IMG/VR virus record: IMGVR_UViG_3300045976_000196
Coordinates: 1-40,080 of that record
Source: a virus
Reading direction: 5' to 3' (one strand)
Length of the DNA: 40,080 nt
Shown: positions 7,977 to 28,665 of the stretch, in pieces
How positions within the stretch are numbered: position 1 is the stretch's first letter
How the letters are laid out: every line of letters starts with the position of its first letter
Translations under genes and position numbers: made by a program
Notes under the pieces: model-generated
Databases searched by the model: none
Told to the model about the DNA's origin: nothing
The model's input: the letters and a program-made list of their open reading frames with translations, nothing else

Positions 7977-9568
7977 GGCTGTGTAGTCGTCTGGGTTGTG
8001 GTGTCTTCTTCGAACGAAGATCCGAAGCGGCCACCGGGAGCGTTGGCGTTCGAAGTGGTCTGGCGCAGCAGAGTGAGGATGGTGTCTACGGGCCACTTGT
8101 CCTTGTGCTTCGCGGCGATGGTCTCGGCACGCGTGAGCAGGGCATCGACTTCGCGGTCGCGCTGGGTGTGAAGCTTCGCCGCAGTGGTGCCCATGCGCAG
8201 GGCCTTCTGCTCGTCGGTGAGCCAGCCGTAATTGGCGTCCTCGCGGTCGTTCTGCCGGTCATTGCCCTCGTCGATCGTCATCAAGGGTGGCATCGAGAAA
8301 TCCCATTTCAGAAATCCGCCAATATCCTTGCCGGGATAGGGCGGCAGGATCGCGGGCTCGCCATTCGGCCCCTTCTGCATCGCGACGCCGATGGCGTAGC
8401 GGATCTTGCGCAGGGCGGGATAGCGCAGGAGAGACTGGCGGTCGGCGATGGATTTGCGCGCGGTATTCTGATCGGCGCGCGTGGCGGTGCCATTCGTGCC
8501 GTCCTTCTTCCAAACGAGGGAATACGGCCAATTCGCGGCGACACAGCAGACGCGGATGCCGCGGTCGTTGAACGATTCCCAATCGCTGCCTGGGCGCTGG
8601 TGCAGGAATTGCTCGAGCTTTCCGCCGCCATTCGCCTTGAAGTAGCGGATGAGGCCGCCGTAGAGATTCTTGAACTCGGGCGCTCCGGTGCTGGCGGGGA
8701 GATTCGCCGTATTCAGCGGGTCGTCGAGGCTGAAGCCGTCGCTGGCATCGCCGGTGTCGTTGTATTCCAGCAGGCCGATGGCGCTGGCGATGAGCATGCA
8801 CTGCTCCTCCCACTCGTGCGACTGCGCCATGGAGCGCCAGCTATCGAGCACGCTGGCAAAGAGCGGCAGGCCGCGCCCCTGGTCCACGCGACGCGGCTCG
8901 AACGTGCGGATGATGTGCGCGGTGTCGATATCCTCGAACTCGCCGCGATTCTCGCCGCGGATGCGGAAGGCGATGGGGCGACCGGCGCGGTTCTTGATCA
9001 CGCCATTCTCGATGTCGGCGCCGTCGTATTTGCCGCCGACGACCTTCGTGGCATTATCCCACTGGCCGATACGCCGGCAGGAGATGGCCTGCAGCATGGG
9101 CCAGCGGCCCTCGCCATCCTCGCTGCGCGTCTGGATGGTGATGGACTCGCCGCGCACGTCGGTCTCGATGGAGTCGAGATAGAGGCCGGTATTGAAATCG
9201 AAAATCTCGCCGCGAACGTCGCAATAGGGGAACCACTGATTGACGAGCCAATCGGTCACGAGGTCGCCCCACTCGTGGGCGGCCTTGTCGTCTGGGCCCG
9301 CGCCGCCGAGGAAGATGGGCGCCCAGCCGTCGGTCACGGAATACATCGACTTCTGCGCGACGATGCCCTCGGCGACGCCGAAGTTCATGTCCACCTTGTC
9401 GGCGAGGAAGCTGACGGTCTCGAAGTCGCGATTCGTGATCAGCTTCTTGAGCGGATCGAGCGGGCGCAGCGTCTCGGGCGGGAGACGTCGCGAGCCATTC
9501 TCGGCGCTCTTCAGGAACTTCGAGCTGATGGGCTGGCCATTCGGGCCAAAAAGACAGGGCTCGCTCAT
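7973..9568 (-). CDS. Portal protein, lambda gpB-like
   Basis: A 531-residue protein starting at ATG 9568, which overlaps the stop of the preceding gene. An upstream ATG in frame (9592) would add eight residues inside that gene. Length, order (before the S49 protease) and motifs such as the HIIRTFEPRRVDQGRGLPLF segment and a following SWEEQ-like region (SHEWEEQC) match the lambda-type portal family. The protein forms the dodecameric ring at the packaging vertex. Confidence 0.88.
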   Translation of the reverse strand: MSEPCLFGPNGQPISSKFLKSAENGSRRLPPETLRPLDPLKKLITNRDFETVSFLADKVDMNFGVAEGIVAQKSMYSVTDGWAPIFLGGAGPDDKAAHEWGDLVTDWLVNQWFPYCDVRGEIFDFNTGLYLDSIETDVRGESITIQTRSEDGEGRWPMLQAISCRRIGQWDNATKVVGGKYDGADIENGVIKNRAGRPIAFRIRGENRGEFEDIDTAHIIRTFEPRRVDQGRGLPLFASVLDSWRSMAQSHEWEEQCMLIASAIGLLEYNDTGDASDGFSLDDPLNTANLPASTGAPEFKNLYGGLIRYFKANGGGKLEQFLHQRPGSDWESFNDRGIRVCCVAANWPYSLVWKKDGTNGTATRADQNTARKSIADRQSLLRYPALRKIRYAIGVAMQKGPNGEPAILPPYPGKDIGGFLKWDFSMPPLMTIDEGNDRQNDREDANYGWLTDEQKALRMGTTAAKLHTQRDREVDALLTRAETIAAKHKDKWPVDTILTLLRQTTSNANAPGGRFGSSFEEDTTTQTTTQP

Positions 9569-9918
9569 GGGCAGGTGTAGCCGGGGAGGCACGGGCCGCC
9601 GAAGCTGGAGAAGGCGACATTGCGCCGACGGCGGAAGAGCAGCGCCTCGATCTCGGTGAGGGTGTGTTGTTTGAGGAACCGAATGGCATCGAAGGTAATC
9701 TCTGTGATTTCCTTCGGGCCGAAATTCGCCGGCAGCGTATAGGAGAAGCTCTTGCCCTCGCTGGCGGCGGTGGTCATCACGCGACCATTCGCGCCGGTGT
9801 GCGTGGAGTATTGGCCGGCGAGCACGAGCTCGAGGGCGGCCACTGCGGCATCCTTGTCGTCGCTATTGGCCTTCAGAGCCGCGTAGGCAAAGGCATGGAC
9901 GGCCGTGGAGAAGTTCAC
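9565..9918 (-). CDS. Small head protein upstream of portal, function unknown
   Basis: A 117-residue protein starting at GTG 9918 and ending four bases into the portal start (ATGA overlap). The centre is alpha-helical and Ala-rich, and the C-terminus is basic and then Gly/Pro/Cys-rich. The place between terminase and portal is that of lambda gpW (a 68-residue connector), but this protein is larger and I see no clear match. A TTGACAC motif lies 12 bases upstream of the GTG. Confidence 0.65.
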   Translation of the reverse strand: MNFSTAVHAFAYAALKANSDDKDAAVAALELVLAGQYSTHTGANGRVMTTAASEGKSFSYTLPANFGPKEITEITFDAIRFLKQHTLTEIEALLFRRRRNVAFSSFGGPCLPGYTCP

Positions 9919-10070: not shown

Positions 10071-10146
10071 TGGTGGCAGGGGCAGGAATCGAACCTGCGA
10101 CCTCCGGGGTATGAGCCCGACGAGCTAACCACTGCTCCACCCTGAC
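10071..10146 (-). tRNA. tRNA-Met(CAT), initiator-like
   Basis: The minus strand folds as a full 76-base cloverleaf with encoded CCA. It has acceptor GTCAGGG/CCCTGCC (one T-C mismatch at the second pair), D stem GAGC/GCTC, anticodon stem TCGGG/CCCGG with loop CTCATAC (anticodon CAT), and T stem GCAGG/CCTGC with loop TTCGATT. Three consecutive G-C pairs at the bottom of the anticodon stem and an A11-T24 pair are hallmarks of bacterial initiator tRNA. The first acceptor pair is G-C, unlike typical tRNA-fMet, but the next pair is a mismatch that could also weaken the end. Its 5' end overlaps the 3' end of the gene at 10125-10439. Confidence 0.9.
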
Positions 10147-10439
10147 GATGTGGGCGGCGTGTCAATGACCCATGCGACGAGCAGGTGCTCCACTCCGAGC
10201 ATGAGGCTGGCGACGTAGGCGTGCCGTCCGTCGTGCACGACAAAGGTGTCGCCTTCCCAATGCCCATTCGGCGGCGGCCACTCCTGCGCGGGGAGCGTCT
10301 GTAGCAGCCTACGAAACGCAGCCTCGACATCTCCGACGGCCATTCTCTCGCGGCACGCCATGCGCACCTTGTGGATCGGCACATATCCAGTAGCGATATG
10401 CGCTCCAGGAGCGACAAGGAGATGGCGATCTGCGATCAT
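10125..10439 (-). CDS. Small protein between terminase and portal, unknown
   Basis: A 104-residue protein whose ATG 10439 overlaps the terminase stop (ATGA), so it is translationally coupled. Composition is normal, with a hydrophobic/aromatic core and no signal peptide. The last ~7 codons and the TAG lie inside the 5' half of the tRNA gene, so transcript processing at the tRNA would cut this mRNA at its end. Function is unknown. The position allows a packaging or connector role. Confidence 0.65.
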   Translation of the reverse strand: MIADRHLLVAPGAHIATGYVPIHKVRMACRERMAVGDVEAAFRRLLQTLPAQEWPPPNGHWEGDTFVVHDGRHAYVASLMLGVEHLLVAWVIDTPPTSSGWSSG

Positions 10440-12316
10440 GTGGTGGTGGCGCAGTCGGCCTCGAAGGAATGGCCGATGCAGTTTCCGATGCCGTTTCCCT
10501 TCGGCCCGAGCGAGGCCATCACGAGGAGCATGCATCGTGCGTCGCGGTAGTGGTCGGCGCGCTTGCCGATGCGTATCCACTGCATCACGCGGCGGCCGGT
10601 GGCCTTGTTCTCCTTCGCGACTTTGTGGTTCGCACGCATTTGCGCCCAGAATCCGGTGGGCTTTTGCGTGCCTGGGTCGATGTAGGCGGCGACGTCCTCG
10701 ATGTCGGCGGGAACTCCGTAGGCGAGGCCGGCGTGCGCGAGGCGGTGGGCGTGCAGGTCGTGAAAGAAGGCATTCGACCACGAGGCGCGCCACGGGGCTT
10801 TTGCCAGGCCGGTGACGCGCTCTGGCTTCGAAAACGGCGTGCGGTAGGAGCGGCGCGTGCGGTCGTCGAACTGCGGCCAGTCCATGCGGTCGCTGCCGAG
10901 GAGCTCGAGCCAGCCGTATTTGAAGCAGATGGAATTGATGAGCGGCGTCTCGTCGGCGCAGTCGATGCCGACGCGCTTGCCGACGATGCCGAGACGCTCC
11001 TGCAGGGCGTGGATGTCGTCGGCGGAATTCATGCGCGCGGCATGGATCACCCGCGACTCGCCATTCGCGGCGAACGCGGCCGCGCACGTCACGAAATAGC
11101 CGCCATCGCCGGACTGGTAATCGGCGCAGATGAAGCGGTCCTCCTCGATGGCCCACGGGAAGCCGGCCTTGATGCCGGGGAAGCGGGACTCGTTCTCGAC
11201 CATCACGTAATCGCTCTCGGGGGCGTCGCTCTTGTAGCCCTCGAAGCGGTGCTCGTGCTCATCCCAAAACTCGGCGCAGCGTTTCTGGATGTAGATCTTC
11301 ATCGGCTCGTAGTTGCCGACCTTGCGGGCGAGATTCGCGCGCTTCCACTCGAGCGCGAGCTGGCCCCAGGGCACGTAGTAGAGCGCGGTCGCATGGACGT
11401 GGAAGCCGATGTGGCCGGGCAGTGCGCGGTCGTTCGTGGCGACGTAGGTGCTCTCGGTGGAGAGCTGGCGGCGCACGTCGATCTTGTCGGGGAACTCGGT
11501 GCCGCAGCGGCCTGGGCACTTGTAGCGCGCGCTCTCGAGGATGGCGCGCTCGTCGATCTCGCCGGTGCCGGTCTCGCCGCTCTCGAAGAGTAGGCCGGCA
11601 TTGCACCACGCGTGCACGTGGCTGCACTCGGGGCAGACCATGGAGTATTGCGCCTGGTCGGTCCATTGCCACGCCTCCTCAAGCTCGGTGAGCACGATCT
11701 CGCCGTCCTTCTCGATGAATCGGAAGCCGCCCTGGCTGGCGATGATGCGGCGCTGGTTCCAGCGATCGTGCGTGCGGGCGCGGGCCTCGGCGATGAACCC
11801 GTGCGGCGCCATCCACGCCTCGTCGATGCCAACGAAGCGGACGCTCTTTCGCTGCACGGCCTTCCATTTCAGGCTGGAGCAATAGAGAGACATGTGCGGC
11901 AGGGCGACGAAGCCGCGGCGCTTTTTCTTGCGCGGCAGGCGGTCGATCATCTTCGCGACGTCCTCGATGCCCTCGAGGATCGGGAAGAGTCGCTCCTCCC
12001 AATACGCGTTTGCCTCCTCGTCGTTCTGGAGCGTGAGGAGGAAGGAGCCGGGGTCGGTCTTGATGGCGCGAGGCACGGCGACATCGAAGACAGTCGTCTT
12101 GCCGGCGCCGGTGGGCATGAGGAGCACCATCTCCTTGATGGAGTTATCCGGCAGCGCGTCGATCGGCGCGCGGAGCCATGGCGTGGCGGTGACGTCAACC
12201 TGCGACGCGCGGGCGGAGTGCGGCGGCTTCACGAACTCGGCGGCCCATTCCGTAGCTGGCCGGCGGTCCTCGGGCTCCCACGCGGAGGCGTAGGCGTCTA
12301 TGAGCGCGGCGCTCAT
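10436..12316 (-). CDS. Terminase large subunit, lambda GpA family
   Basis: A 626-residue protein starting at ATG 12316, overlapping the small-subunit stop (ATGA). The ATPase P-loop is LLMPTGAGKTT near residue 75. A zinc-ribbon-like segment with CPECSHVHAWC and a later CPGRC lies near residues 235-285. The nuclease domain follows, with acidic residues in ICADYQSGDGG (~400) and GIDCADE (~450). These are features of the GpA-type packaging motor, which cuts at cos in lambda. This suggests cohesive ends, although the site is not located. Confidence 0.92.
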   Translation of the reverse strand: MSAALIDAYASAWEPEDRRPATEWAAEFVKPPHSARASQVDVTATPWLRAPIDALPDNSIKEMVLLMPTGAGKTTVFDVAVPRAIKTDPGSFLLTLQNDEEANAYWEERLFPILEGIEDVAKMIDRLPRKKKRRGFVALPHMSLYCSSLKWKAVQRKSVRFVGIDEAWMAPHGFIAEARARTHDRWNQRRIIASQGGFRFIEKDGEIVLTELEEAWQWTDQAQYSMVCPECSHVHAWCNAGLLFESGETGTGEIDERAILESARYKCPGRCGTEFPDKIDVRRQLSTESTYVATNDRALPGHIGFHVHATALYYVPWGQLALEWKRANLARKVGNYEPMKIYIQKRCAEFWDEHEHRFEGYKSDAPESDYVMVENESRFPGIKAGFPWAIEEDRFICADYQSGDGGYFVTCAAAFAANGESRVIHAARMNSADDIHALQERLGIVGKRVGIDCADETPLINSICFKYGWLELLGSDRMDWPQFDDRTRRSYRTPFSKPERVTGLAKAPWRASWSNAFFHDLHAHRLAHAGLAYGVPADIEDVAAYIDPGTQKPTGFWAQMRANHKVAKENKATGRRVMQWIRIGKRADHYRDARCMLLVMASLGPKGNGIGNCIGHSFEADCATTT

Positions 12317-12831
12317 TGGTAGGCCTTCGAGAGGGCGTTGTTCAGCGTCTTGCAGATCGAGTCGATGAGCACGGAGACGCGGCGCTCCATCTCGGATGCC
12401 TTGAGCCCCTCCCACGTCGGCACATCGGCCTTGAACCGCAAAAGCTCCGCGCGCGTCGCAGCACCGATGCGACGCCCCTGGTCGGCGATCACGTCGTTAT
12501 GCGTGTAGAGTCCGCGCTCGACCTCGTTCTGGAATTCCAGCTTCTCGCACTGCGCGAGCAGGCGGCGGCACTCGAGTTCCTCTTTTCGCGATCCCGAGCC
12601 ATCGACGGCCTCGGCATTCTCAGCAAGCCACGGCTTCAGCTCCGAAATGCACACCGACCCATTCGGGCGGAAGCCAGGCGCCCCCGCCTTCTTGGCATTC
12701 TTCAGAACGGTCGGATGGCACTCCAGCCGCGCCGCCGCCGCCGAAAGAGAGGCAGCCATCACAACAGATTGCCCCTCCGCTACCTCCTCACCACCACGGC
12801 GTGTGTGTTTTTGGATTTTGGCACTTTTCAC
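12313..12831 (-). CDS. Terminase small subunit, Nu1-like
   Basis: A 172-residue protein starting with GTG 12831. The N-terminal third looks like a winged helix (AAARLECHPTVLKNAKKAG, then a GSVCISELKPWL wing). A helical linker and a C-terminal region that should contact the large subunit follow. It lies directly upstream of and overlaps the large subunit. No Shine-Dalgarno sequence is visible before the GTG. An internal ATG at residue 25 is a possible alternative start. Confidence 0.8.
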   Translation of the reverse strand: MKSAKIQKHTRRGGEEVAEGQSVVMAASLSAAAARLECHPTVLKNAKKAGAPGFRPNGSVCISELKPWLAENAEAVDGSGSRKEELECRRLLAQCEKLEFQNEVERGLYTHNDVIADQGRRIGAATRAELLRFKADVPTWEGLKASEMERRVSVLIDSICKTLNNALSKAYQ

Positions 12832-13936: not shown

Positions 13937-14092
13937 TGTAACAGCGAAATTATGTTACATTACAGAGTATTTCGTCACCTTGACACGGTAGGGGTCACAG
14001 GTTCGAACCCTGTATCGCGCACCATATACGGCTCATTTAGGGCCATATCCATAGAAGTGGGCTTTTCGAATGTTACATTTTCGTGTTACATT
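13937..14092. repeat. TGTTACATT repeats flanking attP
   Basis: TGTTACATT occurs at 13953-13961, 14071-14079 and 14084-14092, with an inverted TGTAACA at 13937-13943. The copies bracket the tRNA-like attP core and end just before the integrase start. They could be integrase arm-type or excisionase sites, or operators for the integrase promoter. Three exact nine-base copies in 140 bases are unlikely by chance. Confidence 0.5.
13976..14024 (+). other. attP core: 3' half of a tRNA-Val(GAC)
   Basis: The sequence matches the 3' part of a tRNA: anticodon loop TTGACAC (anticodon GAC, 13980-13986), 3' anticodon strand GGTAG, variable loop GGGTC, perfect T arm ACAGG-TTCGAAC-CCTGT, acceptor strand ATCGCGC, discriminator A and CCA (14022-14024). 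The 5' half of the tRNA is absent. Phage attP cores commonly carry a tRNA 3' end so that integration restores the host gene. The integrase follows at 14100. Predicted attB: a host tRNA-Val(GAC) whose 5' acceptor strand reads GCGCGAT. Confidence 0.9.
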
Positions 14093-14099
14093 CTTGGGC

Positions 14100-15149
14100 A
14101 TGAAAGGCGCGCTGAGGGGGCTCTATAAACGCGGAAAAATTTGGTGGTATCGCTGGGGCGTGGATGGTCGCGGTTATCACCAGAGTCTGAAAACTCAGAA
14201 CGAAGACGAGGCCATTGCGAAGGCCCTTGCCATTCGCCGCACGCCGGAGTTGGTGAAGTCGGATGAATGGAAAAAAGATGTTCGCTCCTTCATCCGTCAC
14301 AAGGTCTCTCTACGGGAATTTCGTGAAGGCCAATCTTCCAAGATTCGCGAGGATAAACTCGTGAGCATCGGCCAGGAGATTGGCATCTCCACGGTCGCCC
14401 AGCTTGATACAGAGCGCATCCAGACATGGTATGACGCCATGCGAGTGGCTCCATCCACGCGCCAGACCTACCTCAATTATCTCTCCTCCTTCTGCGCGTG
14501 GCTCGTCGAGAAACGGATGCTCCGCGAGAATCCGTGCACGCGCGTTCAGAGGGGGAAAATTCATCGCGCCGGACGCAAGTCCTTCCTCGAGCCGGAGGAT
14601 GTCGATAAATTGATTGCCGCCGTTGATGATCGCGTGGTTGCGATATCCGGCGAGGCCAAGGGATTATCCAACGACGAGCTGAAATTCATTTTGCTCTGCG
14701 GCTTCGATGCCGGCTTGCGCACGGAGGAGATTATCGAGGCGCAGCCGCATTGGTTCGACCTGCGCCGCGGCCTGCTTCACGTGCAGGCGACCGAGAACTG
14801 GATTCCCAAGGACAACGAGGCGCGCACGATCCCGCTCACGCAGCGTTTCCAGGAATTCCTCTCCACATTCCTGAGGCGTGAGGACAAGTATGTGTTGAAG
14901 CCGTCGGCCACGAAGTCCGCCTGGCGGTATCGCTACGATTTTCGCCGGCCGTTCAAGAAATTCGTCGCCGCGGCCGGGTATCCCACCCTCACTCGCCACG
15001 ACATGCGCCGCACCTTCGCGAGCCTGCGTGTCTCCGCCGGCGTCTCCATCTACAAGGTCGCCCGCTGGCTGGGCGATGGTGTCGCCGTCGTCGAGCGCAG
15101 CTACGGCCACCTCATCCCTCTCGACTCGGATATCGAGCGCGATCGGTGA
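14100..15149 (+). CDS. int: Phage tyrosine integrase
   Basis: A 349-residue recombinase next to attP. The N-terminal arm-binding segment (LYKRGKIWWYRWGVDG) and the SAM-like core-binding domain (~70-160) precede the catalytic domain. Catalytic residues appear as R in DAGLRTEEI, H..R in TRHDMRRTF, LGD in place of LGH, and the nucleophile Y in VVERSYGHL. An in-frame ATG at 14070 exists, but 14100 gives the usual N-terminus. It catalyses integration at the tRNA-Val site. It belongs to a different branch from the second recombinase at 27649. Confidence 0.93.
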   Translation: MKGALRGLYKRGKIWWYRWGVDGRGYHQSLKTQNEDEAIAKALAIRRTPELVKSDEWKKDVRSFIRHKVSLREFREGQSSKIREDKLVSIGQEIGISTVAQLDTERIQTWYDAMRVAPSTRQTYLNYLSSFCAWLVEKRMLRENPCTRVQRGKIHRAGRKSFLEPEDVDKLIAAVDDRVVAISGEAKGLSNDELKFILLCGFDAGLRTEEIIEAQPHWFDLRRGLLHVQATENWIPKDNEARTIPLTQRFQEFLSTFLRREDKYVLKPSATKSAWRYRYDFRRPFKKFVAAAGYPTLTRHDMRRTFASLRVSAGVSIYKVARWLGDGVAVVERSYGHLIPLDSDIERDR

Positions 15150-21986: not shown

Positions 21987-22399
21987 GAGTCTCCGACGAT
22001 CTCAATAAGCCGAAGCTCCACGCCGGCGACCTCGACGGGCGCGAGATCACGCTCACGATCCAGCGCGTCGAGCCCCGCGGCGCGGTGAAGATGGACGACG
22101 AGGCCATCGACAAGCCCGTGCTCTTCTTCGAGGAGACGACGAAGTTTTTCCCGATCAACGTCACCAACGAGCGCGTCTGCCAGCTCCAGCTCGGCAACTC
22201 CATGGCGAAGTGGCCTGGCAAGAAGATCACGCTCTACCCCACGACCACCGAGATCGCGAAGGCCAGCGCCGAGCGCTACGGCTGCATCATACTCCGCGAG
22301 CGCGGGAAGATGGCCACCGTCCCCTGCATCCGCGTGAAAGCCTCGATGCCCACCACCATCCGCACGAGCGACGCCCCCGACCCCGACTTCCAGCCATGA
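21983..22399 (+). CDS. Conserved phage recombination-module protein
   Basis: A 138-residue protein with pattern LNKPKLHAGDLDGREITLTI at the start, a beta-rich centre and a GNSMAKWPGKKITLYP segment. Proteins with this pattern regularly precede RecE/YqaJ-type nucleases in phages. It may be an OB-fold or nuclease accessory protein. It is coupled to the nuclease by ATGA overlap. Confidence 0.62.
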   Translation: MRVSDDLNKPKLHAGDLDGREITLTIQRVEPRGAVKMDDEAIDKPVLFFEETTKFFPINVTNERVCQLQLGNSMAKWPGKKITLYPTTTEIAKASAERYGCIILRERGKMATVPCIRVKASMPTTIRTSDAPDPDFQP

Positions 22400-23424
22400 C
22401 GACTGCCTCCATTCTCCCCGACGAAGAGCGCGCCGCCGCCGTGCTGCCACCGCCATCGGCCACCGAGCGCGTGCTCGTCCCGCAGCCACTCAGCGCTGCG
22501 CACATCGCACCGCCGCATCTCGAGCCCGGCCTGCACTTCGGCGTCTCCGCCGAGACGTATCGCGCTCTCCCGTATTTCAACCAGTCGATCCTCAAGAAGT
22601 GGATGGAGCTCGGAATGGATGTCCACGGCTCGCGCAACAAGCGCTGCCCGGCGAAGTTCAAGCTCTGGCTCGACACGCGCGACCAGCAGCCACAGAGCGA
22701 GGCCATGCTCCTCGGCAGCCTGCTCGATTGCGTGCTCCTCGAGCCAGACGCCTTCGACTCCCGCTACGTCGTCGTGCCGGAGGATGCTCCGAAGCGCCCG
22801 CCAAAAAAGATCGAGGATTACAAAAAGCCGAGCCTCGAGACCATCACCGCCTGCGCGTGGTGGGAGGATTTCGAGGCCGCCCGAGCCGGGCGCACGGTGG
22901 TCACCTCCGGGCAGCGAGAGCGCGCTCTGGCCATGGCCGCGAGCCTGCGAGAGCGCTCCGACTTCCGCACCATCCTCGAGTCCGGCACGAAGGCCGTGAT
23001 CGTCGCCGAGATCTGCGGCCAGCTCTGCAAGTGCGAGATCGACGTCTTCGTCCTCGCCGGCCGCTACCATTACGACATCAAGAAGTGCGTCGATGCGTCG
23101 AATTCCGCGAAGGGCTTCGTCAAGAGCATCCTCGACTATCGCCTCGACATCCAGGCCGCCTTCTACCTTGACATGGGCGCCGCGATTGGCCACCCACGCG
23201 AGGGCTTCTGCTTCCTCGCCTGCGAAGACGAGGCGCCGCATTTCACGAACGCGATCCGCCTCCCTGCCGACGACGTGCGCGTCGAGCACAGTCGCCGCCA
23301 ATACCTCGCCGCCCTGCAGACGCTCGCGCGGCACATCGCCGGCAACCACTGGCCTGGCTACACGAAATTCGAAATCCCGAACTGGCCCGAGTGGGCGCAA
23401 TTCGAGGCGGAGATGCCGGGCTAA
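22396..23424 (+). CDS. RecE-like exonuclease (PD-(D/E)XK)
   Basis: A 342-residue protein. The N-terminal region has YRALPYFNQSILKKW. The nuclease core then shows LLGSLLDCVLLEP, CEIDVFV and YDIKKC: the acidic residues and Lys of the PD-(D/E)XK site of RecE-type (exonuclease VIII) enzymes. The QAAFYLD helix follows. It resects double-stranded DNA for annealing recombination. The TAA stop lies in GGGCTAACGC, which also looks like the left core of the first attC-like site. Confidence 0.85.
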   Translation: MTTASILPDEERAAAVLPPPSATERVLVPQPLSAAHIAPPHLEPGLHFGVSAETYRALPYFNQSILKKWMELGMDVHGSRNKRCPAKFKLWLDTRDQQPQSEAMLLGSLLDCVLLEPDAFDSRYVVVPEDAPKRPPKKIEDYKKPSLETITACAWWEDFEAARAGRTVVTSGQRERALAMAASLRERSDFRTILESGTKAVIVAEICGQLCKCEIDVFVLAGRYHYDIKKCVDASNSAKGFVKSILDYRLDIQAAFYLDMGAAIGHPREGFCFLACEDEAPHFTNAIRLPADDVRVEHSRRQYLAALQTLARHIAGNHWPGYTKFEIPNWPEWAQFEAEMPG

Positions 23425-23536
23425 CGCGAAGCTCTCCAACCCCGACTTAGCAAAATGAACGACCAAACCACACTTAGCGAAGCGTCAACCCCCGCGTCCA
23501 CGCCAGATGCAGAGTCTTGTTCGGCGTTTGATGGCC
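23418..23536. repeat. attC-like site 1 (weak), RecE/first cassette
   Basis: Left core GGGCTAACGC holds the RecE stop. The right arm GCGTTTGATGGCC (23524-23536) can pair with it with bulges. Bases 23429-23510 repeat 25232-25313 with few mismatches. This could be the attI-equivalent or a degenerate attC. Confidence 0.45.
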
Positions 23537-23814
23537 ATACAGAGGGGCCTTGGGAGATGTCCTACGATCAAGGTAGTTATCGCGACATCATGACGAAAGA
23601 CGCGCGGATCTGCACGGTTCGCCACGGTTATGTCTCGCGAAAAACATACCACGCAAATTCTAGATTAATCGCGGCAGCGCCCACATTGCTAAAATCTCTC
23701 GAGCGACTTCACGCCGCTGTCGCCGATAGGATGATGTCGGCATCCGATGGGATGGTCCGAACGCTGGAGCTGAGCAACGCGGCGCGAATGACGACTGACC
23801 ATGAAATCGCCTGA
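23455..23814 (+). CDS. Cassette gene A: HTxGPW-type phage protein
   Basis: A 119-residue protein. Its first ~25 residues (MNDQTTLSEA...) are encoded inside the attC-like site and nearly repeat the N-terminus of gene F. The rest carries a well-known small-phage-protein pattern: HTEGPWEMSYD, a beta region, then NSRLIAAAPTLLKSL. The end of the frame runs into the left arm of the next site. Function of the family is unknown. Confidence 0.75.
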   Translation: MNDQTTLSEASTPASTPDAESCSAFDGHTEGPWEMSYDQGSYRDIMTKDARICTVRHGYVSRKTYHANSRLIAAAPTLLKSLERLHAAVADRMMSASDGMVRTLELSNAARMTTDHEIA

Positions 23815-23852
23815 GACAATCGAAAATCAGAACGGCTCGCCGCGTTGTGCTC
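23772..23852. repeat. attC-like site 2 (A/B)
   Basis: Left arm GAGCAACGCGGCG (23772-23784) pairs with right arm CGCCGCGTTGTGCTC (23838-23852), with a two-base bulge next to the AAC/GTT core. The start codon of gene B (23801) lies inside. The right core is followed by CAGCGACTGGTTCTG, related to the segment after other sites. Confidence 0.75.
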
Positions 23853-24205
23853 CAGCGACTGGTTCTGTGCGTCCGTCCGTAAAAGAAAGACTCGGCCATA
23901 GCGTGGATGAAAAAGGAAACATCCACTACGACGAACGCCCGATGACGTGGGAGGCCGCTGACAAACTCGCGGGCAAGAAACTCGACCGGCGCAAGAACTA
24001 CTGCGTGATAGATGGCCGCGTGTGTGAACTCGCTGAGTGGGTGGAATCATGCTCCGGCTGTCACGAGACAAATGAAGGCTACGAACTGCCCGGAACAAAA
24101 TTCGACGCGAACGGAATCGCGCTCGGCTCTGGCTGCCATGAGTGTGGCTACCAGGGGAAAGTGAAAACCGCCATGTGGATGCCAATAGATGGCGACGAAT
24201 GGTGA
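23801..24205 (+). CDS. Cassette gene B: zinc-ribbon-like protein
   Basis: A 134-residue protein. Residues 1-14 come from the attC-like site, and the PATGSV motif follows the crossover. The body has two cysteine pairs (CSGCHETNEGYELPG and GCHECGYQG) that probably bind zinc, as in many small phage proteins. It overlaps gene A by 14 bases. Confidence 0.72.
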   Translation: MKSPETIENQNGSPRCAPATGSVRPSVKERLGHSVDEKGNIHYDERPMTWEAADKLAGKKLDRRKNYCVIDGRVCELAEWVESCSGCHETNEGYELPGTKFDANGIALGSGCHECGYQGKVKTAMWMPIDGDEW

Positions 24206-24224
24206 AAGCACAGAACGACAAACC

Positions 24225-24293
24225 CAGCAACCGAGGGCGCGAAAATGAGTGATGCTATCAAAACCGACGCAGCCGCGACCGAAGGTTGCGCTG
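24225..24293. repeat. attC-like site 3 (B/C)
   Basis: CAGCAACC (24225-24232) pairs with GGTTGCGCTG (24284-24293) with a two-base bulge at the same place as in site 2. The start of gene C (24245) lies inside. Immediately downstream the sequence runs into TGCGGTGACTGGCTCTGCG, identical to site 6. Confidence 0.7.
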
Positions 24294-24571
24294 CGGTGAC
24301 TGGCTCTGCGCTAACTCCAATCGGCCCCAGCTCAGACGACTTCTACAGATTTATGAATGCGCGTCACGACCTCGACGAACGCATGCGTGATGGCACCTTC
24401 AATCGCCACACAGGCTATGAAATCTGGCGCAATGCTTGGATGGCCTGCGAGAGAGAACACGGCATCCGCCCGCATGCGCAGAGCGCCCGCGCCTCATCGG
24501 CGGGGGACAACGGCCCCACGTCCGATGCGGGCGCTGGCTCGCCGACGGCCGAGGCCGGGGGCGGCAGGTGA
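24245..24571 (+). CDS. Cassette gene C, unknown
   Basis: A 108-residue protein. The leader is encoded by the site, then AAVTGSAL, then a compact segment (FYRFMNARHDLDERMRDG and TGYEIWRNAWMACERE) resembling small proteins common in phages. The last ~30 residues (Ala/Ser/Gly-rich) read through the next site, so the ancestral protein probably ended earlier. Confidence 0.65.
   Translation: MSDAIKTDAAATEGCAAVTGSALTPIGPSSDDFYRFMNARHDLDERMRDGTFNRHTGYEIWRNAWMACEREHGIRPHAQSARASSAGDNGPTSDAGAGSPTAEAGGGR
24482..24535. repeat. attC-like site 4 (C/D), GTC-type
   Basis: Arms AGCGCCCGC/GCGGGCGCT enclose ATCGG/CCGAT, an asymmetric internal loop CG/ACGT, and a GGGG/CCCC stem. Sites 9 and 11 share the internal loop and order of stems. 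After it comes GGCGCTGGCTCGCCG, like the segment after GTT-type sites. Confidence 0.65.
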
Positions 24572-24576
24572 ATACT

Positions 24577-24996
24577 ATGAGACCGCTTGATCTAATATGG
24601 AAGTGCCGGGAGTGTGGCTGGACTGACATCGGTCCGGCTGAGCCAGATAAATGCGAGGACTGCGATGAGGAAGGCACGTTCGTCGCCGAAGAACCCGAGC
24701 AGCCGACAGCCGACGGCGGGACAGCGAACGCTCGGCGATCATCGCGAAGCGATGAAGTGCGAAGCACGTTCGCCGAAGAGGCGCGGGCGCTCACCGGCGG
24801 GGCCGCCAAGCTACGCGAATACTTCGAGCGCAGACTAGACGAAGCTCACGCCGCGTATGAGCACTACCAGCTTTGCCATGTCCCAGGCGAAAGCACGGAG
24901 AACATCTCCGAAACAATACGTGAGCTGGACGAGCTACTAGCCATCGTCGTGCGGTGGGAAACGGAGGCCCCGGCGGTGAGCGTGAAGCCCAGCTAA
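24577..24996 (+). CDS. Cassette gene D: two joined modules, zinc ribbon plus helical
   Basis: A 139-residue protein. Residues 1-43 are a rubredoxin-like zinc ribbon (CRECGW and CEDCDEEG). Residues ~44-72 are translated from a fold-back (site 5) and nearly repeat a stretch of gene I. Residues 73-139 are a helical protein (LREYFERRLDEAHAAYEHYQ). The simplest reading is two cassettes joined in frame through an attC-like element. The end, Lys-Pro-Ser-stop, lies in the left core of site 6. Confidence 0.7.
   Translation: MRPLDLIWKCRECGWTDIGPAEPDKCEDCDEEGTFVAEEPEQPTADGGTANARRSSRSDEVRSTFAEEARALTGGAAKLREYFERRLDEAHAAYEHYQLCHVPGESTENISETIRELDELLAIVVRWETEAPAVSVKPS
24724..24773. repeat. attC-like site 5, inside gene D
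   Basis: GCGAACG (24724-24730) pairs with CGTTCGC (24767-24773), around a perfect inner hairpin TCATCGC-GAA-GCGATGA (24739-24755). The surrounding 76 bases closely match 27335-27410 in gene I. It is translated as part of the protein (RSSRSDE core). Confidence 0.7.
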
Positions 24997-25057
24997 CCCC
25001 AGCCGGAAATGACCGCTATGAATACAAAAATAACGCCGCCCGGCTTGGGGTTAGCTG
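24990..25057. repeat. attC-like site 6 (D/E)
   Basis: CAGCTAACCCCAGCCGG (24990-25006) pairs with CCGGCTTGGGGTTAGCTG (25040-25057) over 17 pairs with one bulged T, as extrahelical bases occur in attC. The left core carries the gene D stop, the right core is GTTAGCT, and the start of gene E lies inside the loop. Confidence 0.8.
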
Positions 25058-25212
25058 CGGTGACTGGCTCTGCGGCGGGGATGTGCCACTGCGGAAAGAA
25101 ACCCAAACAACCAGACCATACCTGCCCGTATGCCGAGGAAATCAATGGCGACTCAACCTCGCTATGTAACTGCTGCGAGGACTGCGAACATGAATGCTGC
25201 ATGGACATCTAG
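25009..25212 (+). CDS. Cassette gene E: cysteine-rich small protein
   Basis: A 67-residue protein (ATG 25009, or 25018 giving 64). The leader comes from site 6, then AAVTGSAAG, then CHCGKKPKQPDHTC and LCNCCEDCEHECC: nine cysteines that suggest metal binding. Function is unknown. Confidence 0.6.
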   Translation: MTAMNTKITPPGLGLAAVTGSAAGMCHCGKKPKQPDHTCPYAEEINGDSTSLCNCCEDCEHECCMDI

Positions 25213-25234
25213 CGCCGAGCCGCAGAGCGCCAAG

Positions 25235-25330
25235 CTCTCCAACCCCGACTTAGCAAAATGAACGATCAAACCACACTTAGCGAAGCTGCAAGCCCCGCGT
25301 CCGAGCCAGATGGTGGCAAGGGGTTGGGAG
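25235..25330. repeat. attC-like site 7 (E/F)
   Basis: CTCTCCAACCCC (25235-25246) pairs with GGGGTTGGGAG (25320-25330) with one bulged T. The long loop holds the start codon and first 21 codons of gene F. The left part repeats site 1. The preceding GCAGAGCGCCAAGC also precedes site 8. Confidence 0.72.
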
Positions 25331-25629
25331 CGGCGACTGGCTCTGCGGTCGTGAAATGCCCTGTGTGCCGAAATGGAAGGCTGGCAGGACAAGAACTGTG
25401 GTTGGTCGGAGAGGATGGAGTAAAAATATCTTTCCTTGGCTATCAATCTGACCCGTGCCCCGTATGCAAGGGGACGGGTAAAATGATGCATCCCGCCGCT
25501 CCACTCAAGGCGCTGCTCGAACACTCTGGAGTGGCCGACGCCCACGAAGAGGACTTGGAGCCGGAGGATCGTGCCGCAGAAAGCACCGCGCGGCGTCTAC
25601 TCGATACGCAGAGCGCCAAGCCCAGCTAA
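25258..25629 (+). CDS. Cassette gene F: two-CxxC zinc-finger protein
   Basis: A 123-residue protein. The leader MNDQTTLSEA is shared with gene A and encoded in the site. GAATGSAVV follows the crossover. The body has CPVCRNGRL and CPVCKGTGKM, a DnaJ-like zinc-finger arrangement, and a helical acidic end. Lys-Pro-Ser-stop lies in the left core of site 8, exactly as in gene D. Confidence 0.72.
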   Translation: MNDQTTLSEAASPASEPDGGKGLGAATGSAVVKCPVCRNGRLAGQELWLVGEDGVKISFLGYQSDPCPVCKGTGKMMHPAAPLKALLEHSGVADAHEEDLEPEDRAAESTARRLLDTQSAKPS

Positions 25630-25692
25630 TTCCTAGCCGCCAATTTTGACGACCGAAACCAAAACCAACGTGCCACGGCTAGGAATTAGCTG
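25623..25692. repeat. attC-like site 8 (F/G), perfect 17-base arms
   Basis: CAGCTAATTCCTAGCCG (25623-25639) is the exact reverse complement of 25676-25692. Inner TTTTG/CAAAA can extend the fold. The core is AAT/ATT instead of AAC/GTT. A GTTAGCC core-like word follows nine bases later. The perfect arms suggest a recent or still-folding site. Confidence 0.72.
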
Positions 25693-25719
25693 AGGCGATT
25701 TGTTAGCCACTTAGTAAAA

Positions 25720-25932
25720 ATGAGATCGGATACGCTGCCAAGTAAAGAAAATGCTATGGAACAAGAGTTGCAGGATGCCTATCGCGCACTCGACGCGAAG
25801 GATGAGCGAATCAGAAAGCTGGAAAAGGAACTCTCTGATTGCTGGAAAGTCGAAGAAATCATTATGGCGGCAGGGCTGCTTCCAAAAGAGAAGTTCAATC
25901 AAGCTAGAGAGATTATCGCCTCTCTTGGCTAA
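25720..25932 (+). CDS. Cassette gene G: small coiled-coil protein
   Basis: A 70-residue protein (or 58 from the ATG at 25756). The LDAKDERIRKLEKELSDCW segment has clear heptads. A helical end follows. The stop lies in GGCTAACGGGG, again a left core. The CACTTAGTAAAA leader resembles the CACTTAGC and GACTTAGCAAAA words of sites 1 and 7. Confidence 0.62.
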   Translation: MRSDTLPSKENAMEQELQDAYRALDAKDERIRKLEKELSDCWKVEEIIMAAGLLPKEKFNQAREIIASLG

Positions 25933-25934
25933 CG

Positions 25935-26003
25935 GGGCCGGCCCATCGGCGGTCCCCCGTCAGGGGGACACGTCCGATGCGGTGGCTGGTTGCTCGCCGG
26001 CCC
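25935..26003. repeat. attC-like site 9 (G/H), GTC-type
   Basis: Outer arms GGGCCGGC/GCCGGCCC enclose CATCGG/CCGATG, internal loop CG/ACGT and GTCCCCC-GTCA-GGGGGAC. Compared with site 11 the second stem changes on both sides (CATCGG/CCGATG versus CTCCGG/CCGGAG). Downstream of CCGATG comes GCGGTGGCTGG. Confidence 0.72.
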
Positions 26004-26033
26004 GTGGAACGAAGAATCAACCTAATAGCTAAT

Positions 26034-26393
26034 ATGAAACTCACAATCGAAGATGGGAAGTCGAACGTAATCCTGGCCGTCGAGCTGCCAGCCACCGCAC
26101 GACGAATCGCCGTAGGCGATAGCGAAGCGGTCGTCGATGGGCCGGCCCCGTTGCTCGACGGGCTGGCCGAGCTAAAGCGGATCATCGACGGCAGGAATGA
26201 CGAAGCATGGTCGAGGCTGGAGAAAGCACGCAGAACTCCGCAGGAGGATGAACTTCGCTCCGAGTGGGCTCCGCACTACGAAGCCTCGATCATGCTGGAA
26301 AAGCTAATGCTTTACGTCGAATCGAAACCCGCGCGAAGCCCGGCGAGCAACGCTGAGCTATGCCGCGACGACCAACGGGAGGAGTTGGCATGA
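26034..26393 (+). CDS. Cassette gene H, unknown
   Basis: A 119-residue acidic protein with a beta-rich N-terminus (MKLTIEDGKSNVILAVELP) and a helical C-terminus. It has no leader from a site: its ATG follows site 9 by about 30 bases. Its last codons lie in the next fold-back. Function is unknown. Confidence 0.65.
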   Translation: MKLTIEDGKSNVILAVELPATARRIAVGDSEAVVDGPAPLLDGLAELKRIIDGRNDEAWSRLEKARRTPQEDELRSEWAPHYEASIMLEKLMLYVESKPARSPASNAELCRDDQREELA

Positions 26394-26406
26394 GCGCCTT
26401 GTTCGC
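26343..26406. repeat. attC-like site 10 (H/minus block)
   Basis: GCGAGCAACGC (26343-26353) pairs with GCCTTGTTCGC (26396-26406) at nine of eleven positions, around an inner CCAAC/GTTGG hairpin. The gene H stop is inside. Arms are less perfect than at other sites. Confidence 0.5.
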
Positions 26407-26409
26407 AGA

Positions 26410-26544
26410 TCATTCAGGCTTCGGCTTTCGTGGCCTTCCGCCCTTCTTGCCGTTGGCTCTTGCGGCAGCGGTCTTCGCGTCGCTTTTGACTTTACCGCCG
26501 ATCTTTCCTCCGAGCTTACCGAGAGCTTGCGCGGCCTTATTCAT
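26410..26544 (-). CDS. Small basic Lys/Gly-rich protein
   Basis: A 44-residue protein starting MNKAAQALGKLGGK and ending GKKGGRPRKPKPE. Such short basic proteins with the GGRPRK end are frequent in bacterial genomes and probably bind nucleic acid. Its start overlaps the end of the next minus gene, making a three-gene block opposite to the other cassettes. Confidence 0.6.
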   Translation of the reverse strand: MNKAAQALGKLGGKIGGKVKSDAKTAAARANGKKGGRPRKPKPE

Positions 26545-26764
26545 TTGGGGCGAGGTTTTCGGAGATCGTAAATCCATCGTCTCTTTTCCCGGTCTCAAAA
26601 GCCTCGATCAAATCGGCGTCATCAAGATCGTGGCGATGCCAAACATTGCAATCTTCGGAGGCGTTGATTTTTGCCAAATATTCATCGGCCTCTTGAGGCG
26701 TCCCAAATCCATACTGGGGCGCCGTGTTGTAACGCGAAAAATGATGCCAGCGAGCGTCGTCCAT
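26537..26764 (-). CDS. Small acidic protein in reversed cassette block
   Basis: A 75-residue acidic protein rich in Asp, Trp and His, with a PQEADEYLAKINASEDCNVW segment. It lies three bases after its upstream neighbour and overlaps the basic 44-residue gene. The acidic/basic pairing could suggest a toxin-antitoxin-like couple, but no family is recognised. Confidence 0.6.
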   Translation of the reverse strand: MDDARWHHFSRYNTAPQYGFGTPQEADEYLAKINASEDCNVWHRHDLDDADLIEAFETGKRDDGFTISENLAPNE

Positions 26765-26767
26765 TGG

Positions 26768-26992
26768 TTAGGAGAGTTGAGCGAGGGCAAGCTCGCAGGC
26801 TTCCAAGGCAGGGTGGCCAATGGTCAGGGCGCGGGCGTGACCGGAGCGCTTGTTGGACAGGCGGCCGTTGTCGAAAAGGACGTAGCCGCGCCCGAAGTAG
26901 ATTCGATCTGCGCCCGCGCGCGGGCGGTCACCAAAGTAATTGTAGCCCTGCTCGTTGAGCTTCCGGACGATGTCTTGCGTTGTGATTTCCAT
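26768..26992 (-). CDS. First gene of reversed cassette block, unknown
   Basis: A 74-residue protein with an N-terminal helix (TTQDIVRKLNEQGYNYFG) and a beta-rich middle (DRIYFGRGYVLFDNGRL). A hairpin CCCAAA-CCGC-TTTGGG (27004-27019) lies just upstream of its ATG and may be an operator. Its own promoter would be needed because it opposes the early operon. Confidence 0.6.
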   Translation of the reverse strand: MEITTQDIVRKLNEQGYNYFGDRPRAGADRIYFGRGYVLFDNGRLSNKRSGHARALTIGHPALEACELALAQLS

Positions 26993-27003
26993 GGACGCAA
27001 TAT

Positions 27004-27019
27004 CCCAAACCGCTTTGGG
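27004..27019. promoter_or_regulatory. Palindrome upstream of the reversed block
   Basis: CCCAAA and TTTGGG are perfect inverted arms with a four-base spacer, 11 bases upstream of the minus-strand ATG. Operator or hairpin function cannot be separated from sequence alone. The rest of 26993-27107 holds A-rich non-coding DNA. Confidence 0.4.
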
Positions 27020-27107
27020 TTTTGCAAGGGAAATTTCACGCGAAACGAAAAAAGCTGTGAGTTACAGAGTAAATCGCCGCAAAAAAATTCTGCGAACGGG
27101 GCGTGCT

Positions 27108-27146
27108 CTCCGGCGGTCCCTGCCCCTGGCAGGGACACGTCCGGAG
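27108..27146. repeat. attC-like site 11 (before gene I), GTC-type
   Basis: CTCCGG/CCGGAG, internal loop CG/ACGT and GTCCCTGCC-CCT-GGCAGGGAC: the same architecture as site 9 with compensatory changes in both stems. GCGGCGGCTGG follows. A GAAC-containing left flank lies just upstream. Confidence 0.72.
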
Positions 27147-27213
27147 CGGCGGCTGGGTCACCGCTGGCCGAGCCTGTAGGCCGCCCTCGACAACAAAATG
27201 AAAGGAAATAGCC

Positions 27214-27615
27214 ATGCCTGAGCCAGACAAAGTCGAAGAGATGACTCCTGAACAACGCCGAATGCTTGATCGCATCTTCGGGCCCGTAACTACTCCACGC
27301 CGTCTGGCGGTCGCCAATGCACATCGGCGCGAGGCGACAGCCATCGGTGGCACAGACGACGCCCGACGATCATCGCGAAGCGATGAAGGGCGAAGCCCGT
27401 TCGTCGGAGAGCACGCCCCGGTCACCGATGGGCCGGGTAGCCACATCGCCACGTTGGCGAAAATGCTGGAAGAAGAGCGGCGGGAGATACCGTTCTTCGG
27501 AATGCACCTTTCTGACTCACGCAGAGAGGAAATCGAAAGGAGGATAGCCGCTCTGGCCGAAGCCATAGCAGCGCTCCGAAACGGGAACGCTGGAGGCCCA
27601 GCGGTGACCAGGTGA
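27214..27615 (+). CDS. Cassette gene I: two joined modules
   Basis: A 133-residue protein. Residues 1-45 form a helical segment (EMTPEQRRMLDRIFGPVTT). Residues ~46-72 are translated from fold-back site 12 and match gene D. Residues ~75-133 are a second helical protein (IATLAKMLEEERREI and ERRIAALAEAIAAL). As in gene D this looks like in-frame joining of two cassettes. A Shine-Dalgarno-like GAAAGGAAAT precedes the ATG. Confidence 0.68.
   Translation: MPEPDKVEEMTPEQRRMLDRIFGPVTTPRRLAVANAHRREATAIGGTDDARRSSRSDEGRSPFVGEHAPVTDGPGSHIATLAKMLEEERREIPFFGMHLSDSRREEIERRIAALAEAIAALRNGNAGGPAVTR
27355..27405. repeat. attC-like site 12, inside gene I
   Basis: GACGACG (27355-27361) can pair with CGTTCGTC (27398-27405), around TCATCGC-GAA-GCGATGA (27370-27386). 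Relative to site 5 the outer arm changes on both sides (GCG/CGC to GACG/CGTC). Confidence 0.65.
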
Positions 27616-27648
27616 TTCGCCAGAACCACTTCTAAAATAACTCAGAAA

Positions 27649-28665
27649 ATGACGAAATCCGAGGCGATGGCTGCGCTGGAGCGCGGGATGGGGCGGGAGC
27701 GGTTGCTTTACCGCTCGCAGCAGACTTATCGCGGCTGCGTCTCGCGATTTCTCGATTGGGCAAAGGGGCGGTGGTCCGGTTCCACGCCCGAGCAGGTGGT
27801 CTCCGACTACCTCGGCGAACATGCGCCGAATTGGGCGGCGGCCACGCAGAGCCAGGCGCTCAATGCCATCGTCTTCTTTTTCCGCGCGGGGCTGGAGAAG
27901 CCGCTCGGCGAGTTGCCATCGTGGGCGCGTGCGCAACGGCCAAGCCGCCTGCCCGTGTGGCTTACGCACGAGGAGGCGCTCGCCGTGCTCGAGCAAATGA
28001 CCGGTCTTCCCCGGCTCGCGTGCGAGCTGATGTATGGCGGCGGCTTTCGCATCACCGAGGTCTGCCGGCTGCGGCGGCGCGATGTGAACTGGCGAGACCT
28101 CACCATCACTGTGCGCGATGGCAAGGGCGGGAAGGACCGAGTCACCTGCCTGCCCGTGGCGCTTGTCGAGAAGCTGCGTGAGCAGGATGCCCGCGCGGAG
28201 GCCACATGGCGACAGGATCGTGAGCGAAACGTCGGCCCCGTGTGGGTGCCCGATTGCGTGCTCCGCAAGCAGCCACGCGCCGGTCTCGAGGAGGGAAATT
28301 TCTGGTTGCTTCCTGCGGCCGGTCTCGCGCGCGGCGAGCAGTGGGGCAATGTGCGCCACCACGTGCACCCCGATACGCTCGCGAAGGCCATCCCCATCGC
28401 CGTGCGGCGCGCGCGAGTGCTCAAGCGCGTAACCGCGCATGTCTTTCGCCACACGTTCGCCACCGAGTATCTGCGCAACGGCGGCGATCTCAACTCCCTT
28501 CGAGAGCTTCTCGGGCACACGCACCTCGACACCACGCAGATCTATCTACACTGCCTGCCGCGGCTGGCCGCGCGCATCACGAGCCCGCTTGATCAAAAGC
28601 CCGGCAACGTGATCGCGATGCCTTCCGCACCGGCCCCTTTCGCGGCGCTGCACGCTGTTGGTTGA
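27649..28665 (+). CDS. Integron integrase-like tyrosine recombinase
   Basis: A 338-residue recombinase. The N-terminal domain has YRSQQTYRGCVSRFLDW and QRPSRLPVWLTHEEAL. Catalytic residues are R134 (GGGFRITE), K162 (GKGGKDR), H264/R267 (HVFRH), H290 (LLGH) and Y299 (TQIYLH). Between the Lys and the HxxR box lies an extra segment, residues ~198-240 (VPDCVLRKQPRAG, then NVRHHVHPDTL). It aligns by eye with the IntI-specific insert (LPDALERKYPRAG ... VRRHH) that recognises folded attC. The conserved end SPLD is also present. It should recombine the adjacent fold-back sites. No LexA box is seen upstream. Confidence 0.88.
   Translation: MTKSEAMAALERGMGRERLLYRSQQTYRGCVSRFLDWAKGRWSGSTPEQVVSDYLGEHAPNWAAATQSQALNAIVFFFRAGLEKPLGELPSWARAQRPSRLPVWLTHEEALAVLEQMTGLPRLACELMYGGGFRITEVCRLRRRDVNWRDLTITVRDGKGGKDRVTCLPVALVEKLREQDARAEATWRQDRERNVGPVWVPDCVLRKQPRAGLEEGNFWLLPAAGLARGEQWGNVRHHVHPDTLAKAIPIAVRRARVLKRVTAHVFRHTFATEYLRNGGDLNSLRELLGHTHLDTTQIYLHCLPRLAARITSPLDQKPGNVIAMPSAPAPFAALHAVG

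Follow-up and report, generated by a model that had tools for sequence, protein, structure and literature searches.

The virus contig studied here carries an integron built around an IntI-type integrase, in which most cassette genes point toward intI while the attI-like and attC-like sites keep the canonical orientation relative to it. The window analysed, i.e. the whole 40,080-nucleotide stretch of the IMG/VR record IMGVR_UViG_3300045976_000196, is a phage contig with terminase, portal and major head protein genes. The same layout recurs in 23 other uncultivated virus contigs: over all 24 loci, 80 gene direction calls are plus and 5 are minus. Complete integrons in phages have been published (Qi et al. 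2023, PMC9892861), but those look like captured, canonically arranged host or class 1 integrons, and not like a module of an early operon.

The integrase, the attI-like site and the cassette array

The initial annotation described a phage genome carrying an integron, with an IntI-like integrase and about twelve attC-like sites, and inferred that the phage exchanges accessory genes by cassette recombination. This observation was confirmed, and the interpretation was supported by the comparison of related phages. We counted 13 attC-like sites bounding about 13 small cassettes at 23.4-27.6 kb, and an attI-like site in addition. The features of the window are as follows.

5504-6676, minus strand: major head protein (phrog_283)
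7973-9592, minus strand: portal protein
10436-12415, minus strand: terminase large subunit, gpA type
22210-23424, plus strand: gene flanking the distal end of the array (DUF3799, PDDEXK-like)
23425-27609, plus strand: cassette array, 13 cassettes, genes mostly toward intI (7 plus, 1 minus, 5 undecided)
23419-23528, minus strand: attC-like site S1, the most distal, placed by eye; the stop codon of the 22210-23424 gene lies in its left core
23755-23869, minus strand: attC-like site S2, with an extrahelical G on L''
24209-24310, minus strand: attC-like site S3
24477-24544, minus strand: attC-like site S4
24718-24796, minus strand: attC-like site S5, the only window site preferring the other orientation in the PWM test
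24974-25074, minus strand: attC-like site S6, which holds the ATG of the next gene
25221-25347, minus strand: attC-like site S7, which shares 85 nt (92%) with S1, starting exactly at the crossover base
25607-25709, minus strand: attC-like site S8, with 17-bp perfect inner arms
25926-25996, minus strand: attC-like site S9
26078-26157, minus strand: attC-like site S10
26344-26408, minus strand: attC-like site S11
27090-27163, minus strand: attC-like site S12
27344-27427, minus strand: attC-like site S13
23455-23814, plus strand: cassette gene, 119 aa; its first ~27 codons are encoded by attC, and it matches phrog_1273 from residue 27
23801-24205, plus strand: cassette gene, 134 aa, Cys-rich, starting inside attC S2
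24245-24571, plus strand: cassette gene, 108 aa, starting inside attC S3
25009-25212, plus strand: cassette gene, 67 aa, Cys-rich, starting inside attC S6
25258-25629, plus strand: cassette gene, 123 aa, starting inside attC S7
26401-27097, minus strand: cassette with genes on the minus strand (e.g. 26768-26992), the one clear exception in direction
27603-27626, minus strand: attI-like site, with the crossover at the left core ...GGTGAC|C, followed by AGGTGATTCGCCAGAA; the minus strand reads TTCTGGCGAATCACCT-G|GTC
27649-28665, plus strand: intI-like integron integrase, 338 aa
28662-29153, plus strand: VRR-NUC nuclease gene after intI

The integrase matched TIGR02249 (integron integrase) at 249.9 bits, against about 100 for XerC/XerD, although this is just under the curated NCBI cut-off of 265. 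Alignments showed the IntI insert (VPDCVLRKQPRAG...FW..RHH) and all catalytic residues, R134, K159, H264, R267, H290 and Y299, to be present. A tree nested the protein with other viral IntI-like proteins, however its deep support was weak. The best relatives from named phages are integron integrases at 36-37% identity. A scan with the single protein sequence found only one close viral relative and, in bacterial genomes, only a distant tyrosine recombinase, while scans with the DUF3799, VRR-NUC and terminase proteins of the window found no viral relatives.

The two ends of each cassette are complementary to each other, as integron logic requires. An automatic end-complementarity scan gave a score of 22.5 for 23-28 kb, compared with at most 10.5 in 200 shuffles and at most 7.5 in eleven other 5-kb pieces of the window. 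The cores of the window were chosen by eye, partly guided by complementarity; the automatic scan is independent of that choice but recovered only 7 units. Moreover, the attC reconstituted in the free circle folds better than the attC in the array (-28.6 vs -24.0 kcal/mol, p=0.0012). In contrast, a scan for attC by stem strength alone did not separate the array from the rest of this GC-rich phage, and a first DNA motif search in viral contigs gave 23 single hits, about what would be expected by chance. The initial annotation had also stated that the sites keep AAC/GTT cores and stop codons in the left core. The crossover triplet is not always AAC/GTT: the right cores of the window are GTT in 6 sites, GCT in 5 and GGT in 2, usually matched by the other end of the same cassette, whereas GTT prevails in most related arrays. 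Stop codons do lie in or near several left cores, for example TAA-C at 23422-23425.

Orientation of the sites and of the cassette genes

Surprisingly, the cassette genes face intI while attI and attC keep canonical geometry, a feature that the initial annotation did not note. In the PWM test, 70 of 78 sites were canonical relative to intI (12 of 13 in the window and 58 of 65 elsewhere), with a leave-one-out control of 16/16. The extrahelical base was found on L'' rather than L' at a ratio of 44:3 in phage arrays (5:1 in the window and 39:2 elsewhere), compared with 13:1 in controls. A similar attI-like sequence directly follows the last left core in 23 viral loci, between the array and intI, with the same layout as attI1 in a class 1 integron (locus L136). 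With intI directly adjacent, the array is not a CALIN (array without integrase).

The direction of the genes is supported by Pfam, which found 20 families in 83 plus-strand cassette ORFs and none in 59 minus-strand ORFs. In the window itself the direction is less complete, being undecided for 5 of 13 cassettes and minus in one. The mobile unit is therefore attC followed by the gene: attC forms the 5' leader and in about half of the cassettes holds the start codon. The boundaries of duplicated and shared cassettes fall exactly at the predicted crossover, as seen in a 305-nt duplication (100%) in the related locus L040, in a 923-nt cassette (86%) shared between the phage loci L070 and L077, and in the S1/S7 repeat of the window. 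Near-identical phages carry different arrays: the intI genes of L040 and L044 are 92% identical, and homology stops at attI.

Taken together, these data make it likely that the region is a phage-encoded integron of an inverted-cassette type, although the evidence for recombination is only comparative. In this reading, IntI folds and cuts the minus strand of attC and recombines cassettes at the attI next to intI in canonical geometry, whereas the genes are turned round, so each mobile unit is attC, gene and end core. The start codon often lies in the attC loop, translation is inferred to run through attC as an N-terminal leader, and the stop often falls in or near the end core. The cassette genes and intI are co-directional with the neighbouring phage genes; that they share one transcript, replacing the integron Pc promoter, is inferred, as is the activity of IntI. 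The cargo includes DNA methyltransferases and small unknown proteins, which may serve counter-defence.

Alternative explanations and related systems

It remains possible, though we consider it unlikely, that the window carries a true phage integron that is decaying and no longer recombines, which would be compatible with the above interpretation for the relatives. The core triplets deviate in about half of the sites, and same-site pairing is no better than random. However, IntI is intact, 11 of 13 cassettes still have matching triplets at both ends by our reading of the cores, and 12/13 sites keep canonical orientation signals.

It is improbable that the whole array, attC included, is flipped relative to intI, as in Treponema, with ordinary cassettes and crossover at the right cores. 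Genes and intI do share a direction, and stop codons lie near the left cores. Nevertheless, the attI-like sequence lies at the array-proximal end of intI, the attC signature and extrahelical bases point the canonical way, duplicated and shared cassettes break at left cores, and homology between related phages starts at the left core next to intI. In the atypical integrons of Treponema (PMC3607928), intI and cassette genes are likewise transcribed in the same direction, but there intI is flipped and transcribed toward attI while the cassettes are canonical. Here attI lies 5' of intI and the cassette genes are flipped, in a mirror image of that arrangement.

A host integron captured by, or misassembled into, a phage contig is also very unlikely, even though the published phage integrons are captures of host integrons and the window comes from a single metagenomic assembly. 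A weak counterpart of the VRR-NUC gene follows intI in an independent contig (L003), the inverted layout recurs in the 23 other virus contigs, 14 of which carry terminase or portal, and the GC content of intI and its flank matches the phage. It should be noted that all relatives are metagenomic contigs without named hosts, and 9 of 24 show neither terminase nor portal. Sampled bacterial arrays are mostly canonical, with a raw count of 31 minus, 12 plus and 4 undecided calls, six of the plus calls coming from one locus (L166); the control tally leaves out bacterial loci with weak arrays (L158, L163, L164, L170 and L172). Finally, the hairpins overlap start codons, but control elements or terminators unrelated to recombination, for which no Rfam family matched, would not explain the complementarity between cassette ends, the attC-type asymmetry, the duplication boundaries or the linked IntI, and are the least likely explanation.

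Among the phage-borne integrons of Qi et al. (PMC9892861; Shewanella phage M16-3, Vibrio phage Va_90-11-286_p16 and P1 L-II), which also combine IntI with attC cassettes, the cassette genes point away from intI in M16-3 and mostly so in the Vibrio phage, and they were described as captured chromosomal or class 1 integrons; in the window, intI lies within a co-directional phage gene cluster. Class 1 and chromosomal integrons (L136, class 1; L033, Vibrio; L165, L173, L175 and L176, bacterial genomes) share the attI layout (class 1), the attC asymmetry and the end complementarity within cassettes, but have the gene on the other strand of the cassette, so attC is 3' of the gene there and 5' here. 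The named phage Virus Rctr41k (KX853513) has an IntI-like gene (36% identity) in a co-directional cluster of small genes, but no cassette array was detected in it by our scan.

Implications for gene exchange between phages

A broader hypothesis, which we regard as only somewhat more likely than not, is that tailed phages have repeatedly adopted a virus-specific integron design in which reversed cassette genes make attC a translated 5' leader and the array is driven by the phage operon, forming a gene-exchange network between phages for counter-defence and other accessory genes. The arrays also warn that tools assuming a gene-then-attC order may misread them. The finding would show that integrons are not only carried by phages but built into their genomes, with a reversed cassette layout not described in the literature that we could search. 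It gives a concrete mechanism for how phages swap accessory genes one at a time, which may be how such viruses trade anti-defence genes, and makes the exchange of cassettes between phages and bacteria testable.

Phage context and the integron integrase

The whole IMG/VR record of 40,080 bases encodes a terminase, a portal and a major head protein, so it is a tailed-phage contig. The best terminase matches among named phages were weak (23.5% identity) and were led by Verrucomicrobia phage P8625, so the host is uncertain. The features relevant to this context are as follows:
5504-6676, minus strand, major head protein
7973-9592, minus strand, lambda-type portal
10071-10146, minus strand, tRNA-Met (CAT) gene, beside the terminase gene
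10436-12415, minus strand, gpA-type terminase
14070-15149, second tyrosine recombinase, not IntI-like
27649-28665, IntI-type integrase, 338 aa
28668-28692, short repeat-like stretch ACGCAGAGACGCCGAGACGCAGAG directly after intI

The 338-aa protein scored 249.9 bits against TIGR02249 (integron integrase; curated cut-off 265) and about 100 bits against XerC/XerD. Its best matches among named phages are integron integrases at 36-37% identity, and it has the IntI insert and every catalytic residue. The second tyrosine recombinase did not match the integron model and, as may be inferred, is probably the phage's own integrase.

The cassette array and its relatives in other viruses

We placed 13 attC-like sites (numbered from S1) and an attI-like end. 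Their defining property is that the first bases of each cassette are the reverse complement of its last bases, for example GTTCGCAGA...TCTGCGAAC and GCTCACCGGCGGGGCC...GGCCCCGGCGGTGAGC (one mismatch). With the hand-placed cores for S2-S14, the mean match within a cassette was 9.3 of 13, compared with 7.25 within a site and 6.6 elsewhere; none of 20,000 permutations reached the within-cassette value, while within-site pairing was no better than chance (p=0.23). Because some cores were placed with complementarity in mind, the fair test is the automatic chain scan, which gave 22.5 for 23-28 kb, at most 10.5 in 200 shuffles, and at most 7.5 elsewhere in the window. The same scan detected the known integrons of Shewanella phage M16-3 (26.5) and a Vibrio phage (21.5). 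Folding each attC as it would exist in the free circle was more stable than as it stands in the array (-28.6 vs -24.0 kcal/mol, p=0.0012). This is the logic of integron cassettes. Notably, the crossover triplets of the window are variable, so its sites may be less active than those of its relatives. An 80-nt repeat (82.5%) at 24701-24780 and 27332-27411, inside S5 and S13, contains a nested palindrome ATCATCGCGAAGCGATGA.

Two alignment-based scans of viral contigs found many IntI-like genes, and in 23 other loci, all of them on metagenomic contigs, an array of this kind lies upstream of intI, although some arrays are short and that of one locus, L051, did not exceed shuffles. Counting L003, a contig of a related phage that ends at the attI, 15 of 24 such contigs carry a terminase or portal gene, while the two contigs with canonical arrays, L074 and L081, carry neither. 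A sub-group of virus IntI-like proteins (loci L046, L047, L049 and L051) has a divergent insert, and some of its members have upstream arrays; the frame of L051 is broken or truncated.

Direction of the cassette genes and orientation of the sites

By codon usage, cassette genes in the 24 loci (window included) read toward intI in 80 cases, away from it in 5, and were undecided in 16. The calls for very small genes are weak one by one. The array of the Shewanella phage reads away 10 to 0, and that of the Vibrio phage 4 to 2. Among the sampled bacterial genomes, the raw count was 31 away, 12 toward and 4 undecided, with half of the 12 coming from one locus, L166. There (L166:1576-2927), the integron of a bacterial genome holds cassettes facing intI, one encoding a phage-type DNA methyltransferase (phrog_111, 5.9e-41) and a duplicated 91-aa gene, amid ordinary outward cassettes, a possible capture of phage cassettes by a host integron. 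As an independent check, Pfam found 20 families among 83 plus-strand cassette ORFs of the viral arrays and none among 59 minus-strand ORFs. In about half of the cassettes (49 of 97 ORFs) the reading frame starts inside the attC. In the window (23455-25340), several cassette proteins begin with an attC-encoded leader containing a shared (A)xTGS motif (AAVTGSA, PATGSV, AATGSAV), and a cassette protein in L057, another locus, has the same (AAPTGSV).

If genes face intI, either the array is flipped or the genes are flipped within cassettes. In the absence of recombination or expression data, four lines of sequence evidence say the latter. First, a position profile built from 16 canonical attC sites preferred the canonical orientation relative to intI in 70 of 78 viral sites, 12 of 13 in the window (p=1.7e-13 if sites are independent, although some are related; leave-one-out control 16/16). 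Second, the extrahelical base lies on L'' in the canonical reading: 13:1 in controls, 39:2 in viral arrays, and 5:1 in the window (ties not counted). Third, an attI-like motif follows the last left core next to intI in 23 loci, and its layout matches attI1 of a class 1 integron, TAAC|TTTGTTTTAGGGCGAC. Fourth, mobile units are bounded by left cores, as seen from a 305-nt perfect duplication in the viral locus L040, a 923-nt cassette shared by the viral loci L070 and L077 at 86% identity while their integrase genes are 66% identical, and the 85-nt repeat of S1 and S7 in the window, which begins exactly at the crossover base.

Cassette turnover, cargo and comparison with known integrons

The integrases of L040 and L044 are 92% identical, and those of L040 and L043 85%. 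DNA homology around intI stops exactly at attI, and the arrays beyond it differ; L044 carries what, from our reading of the sequence, appears to be a cytosine methyltransferase cassette. The window and L003 also share homology that starts at the same point, but the L003 contig ends there. Contigs of related phages, L003 and L041, end at attI or inside the array, as if assembly breaks at variable cassettes. Two related phages carry cassettes (L053:149-620 and L054:5484-6213) with the same ends and attC-proximal 100 nt but different interiors.

Viral cassettes match DNA methyltransferases, PAPS reductase, RNA ligase, DHH phosphoesterase, and there was one weak Acb2/Tad1 hairpin hit (E 5e-4). Most cassettes, including nearly all in the window, have no known family. 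Counter-defence is a plausible use of this cargo, not a demonstrated one.

Phage integrons and CALINs were described by Qi et al. 2023 (PMC9892861), who showed that phage attC sites are recombined by IntI1; the complete phage integrons are presented there as captured host or class 1 integrons. Treponema integrons also have intI and genes in one direction, however, there intI reads toward attI (PMC3607928), the mirror image of this case. We found no description of whole arrays with reversed cassette genes, although only open-access literature was searched and such absence is weak evidence. The IntI tree suggests that the inverted type is not one clade: IntI1 (L034) falls among L070, L077, L075 and L079 with 97/99 support, though deep branches are unresolved. 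That would mean repeated origin or exchange.
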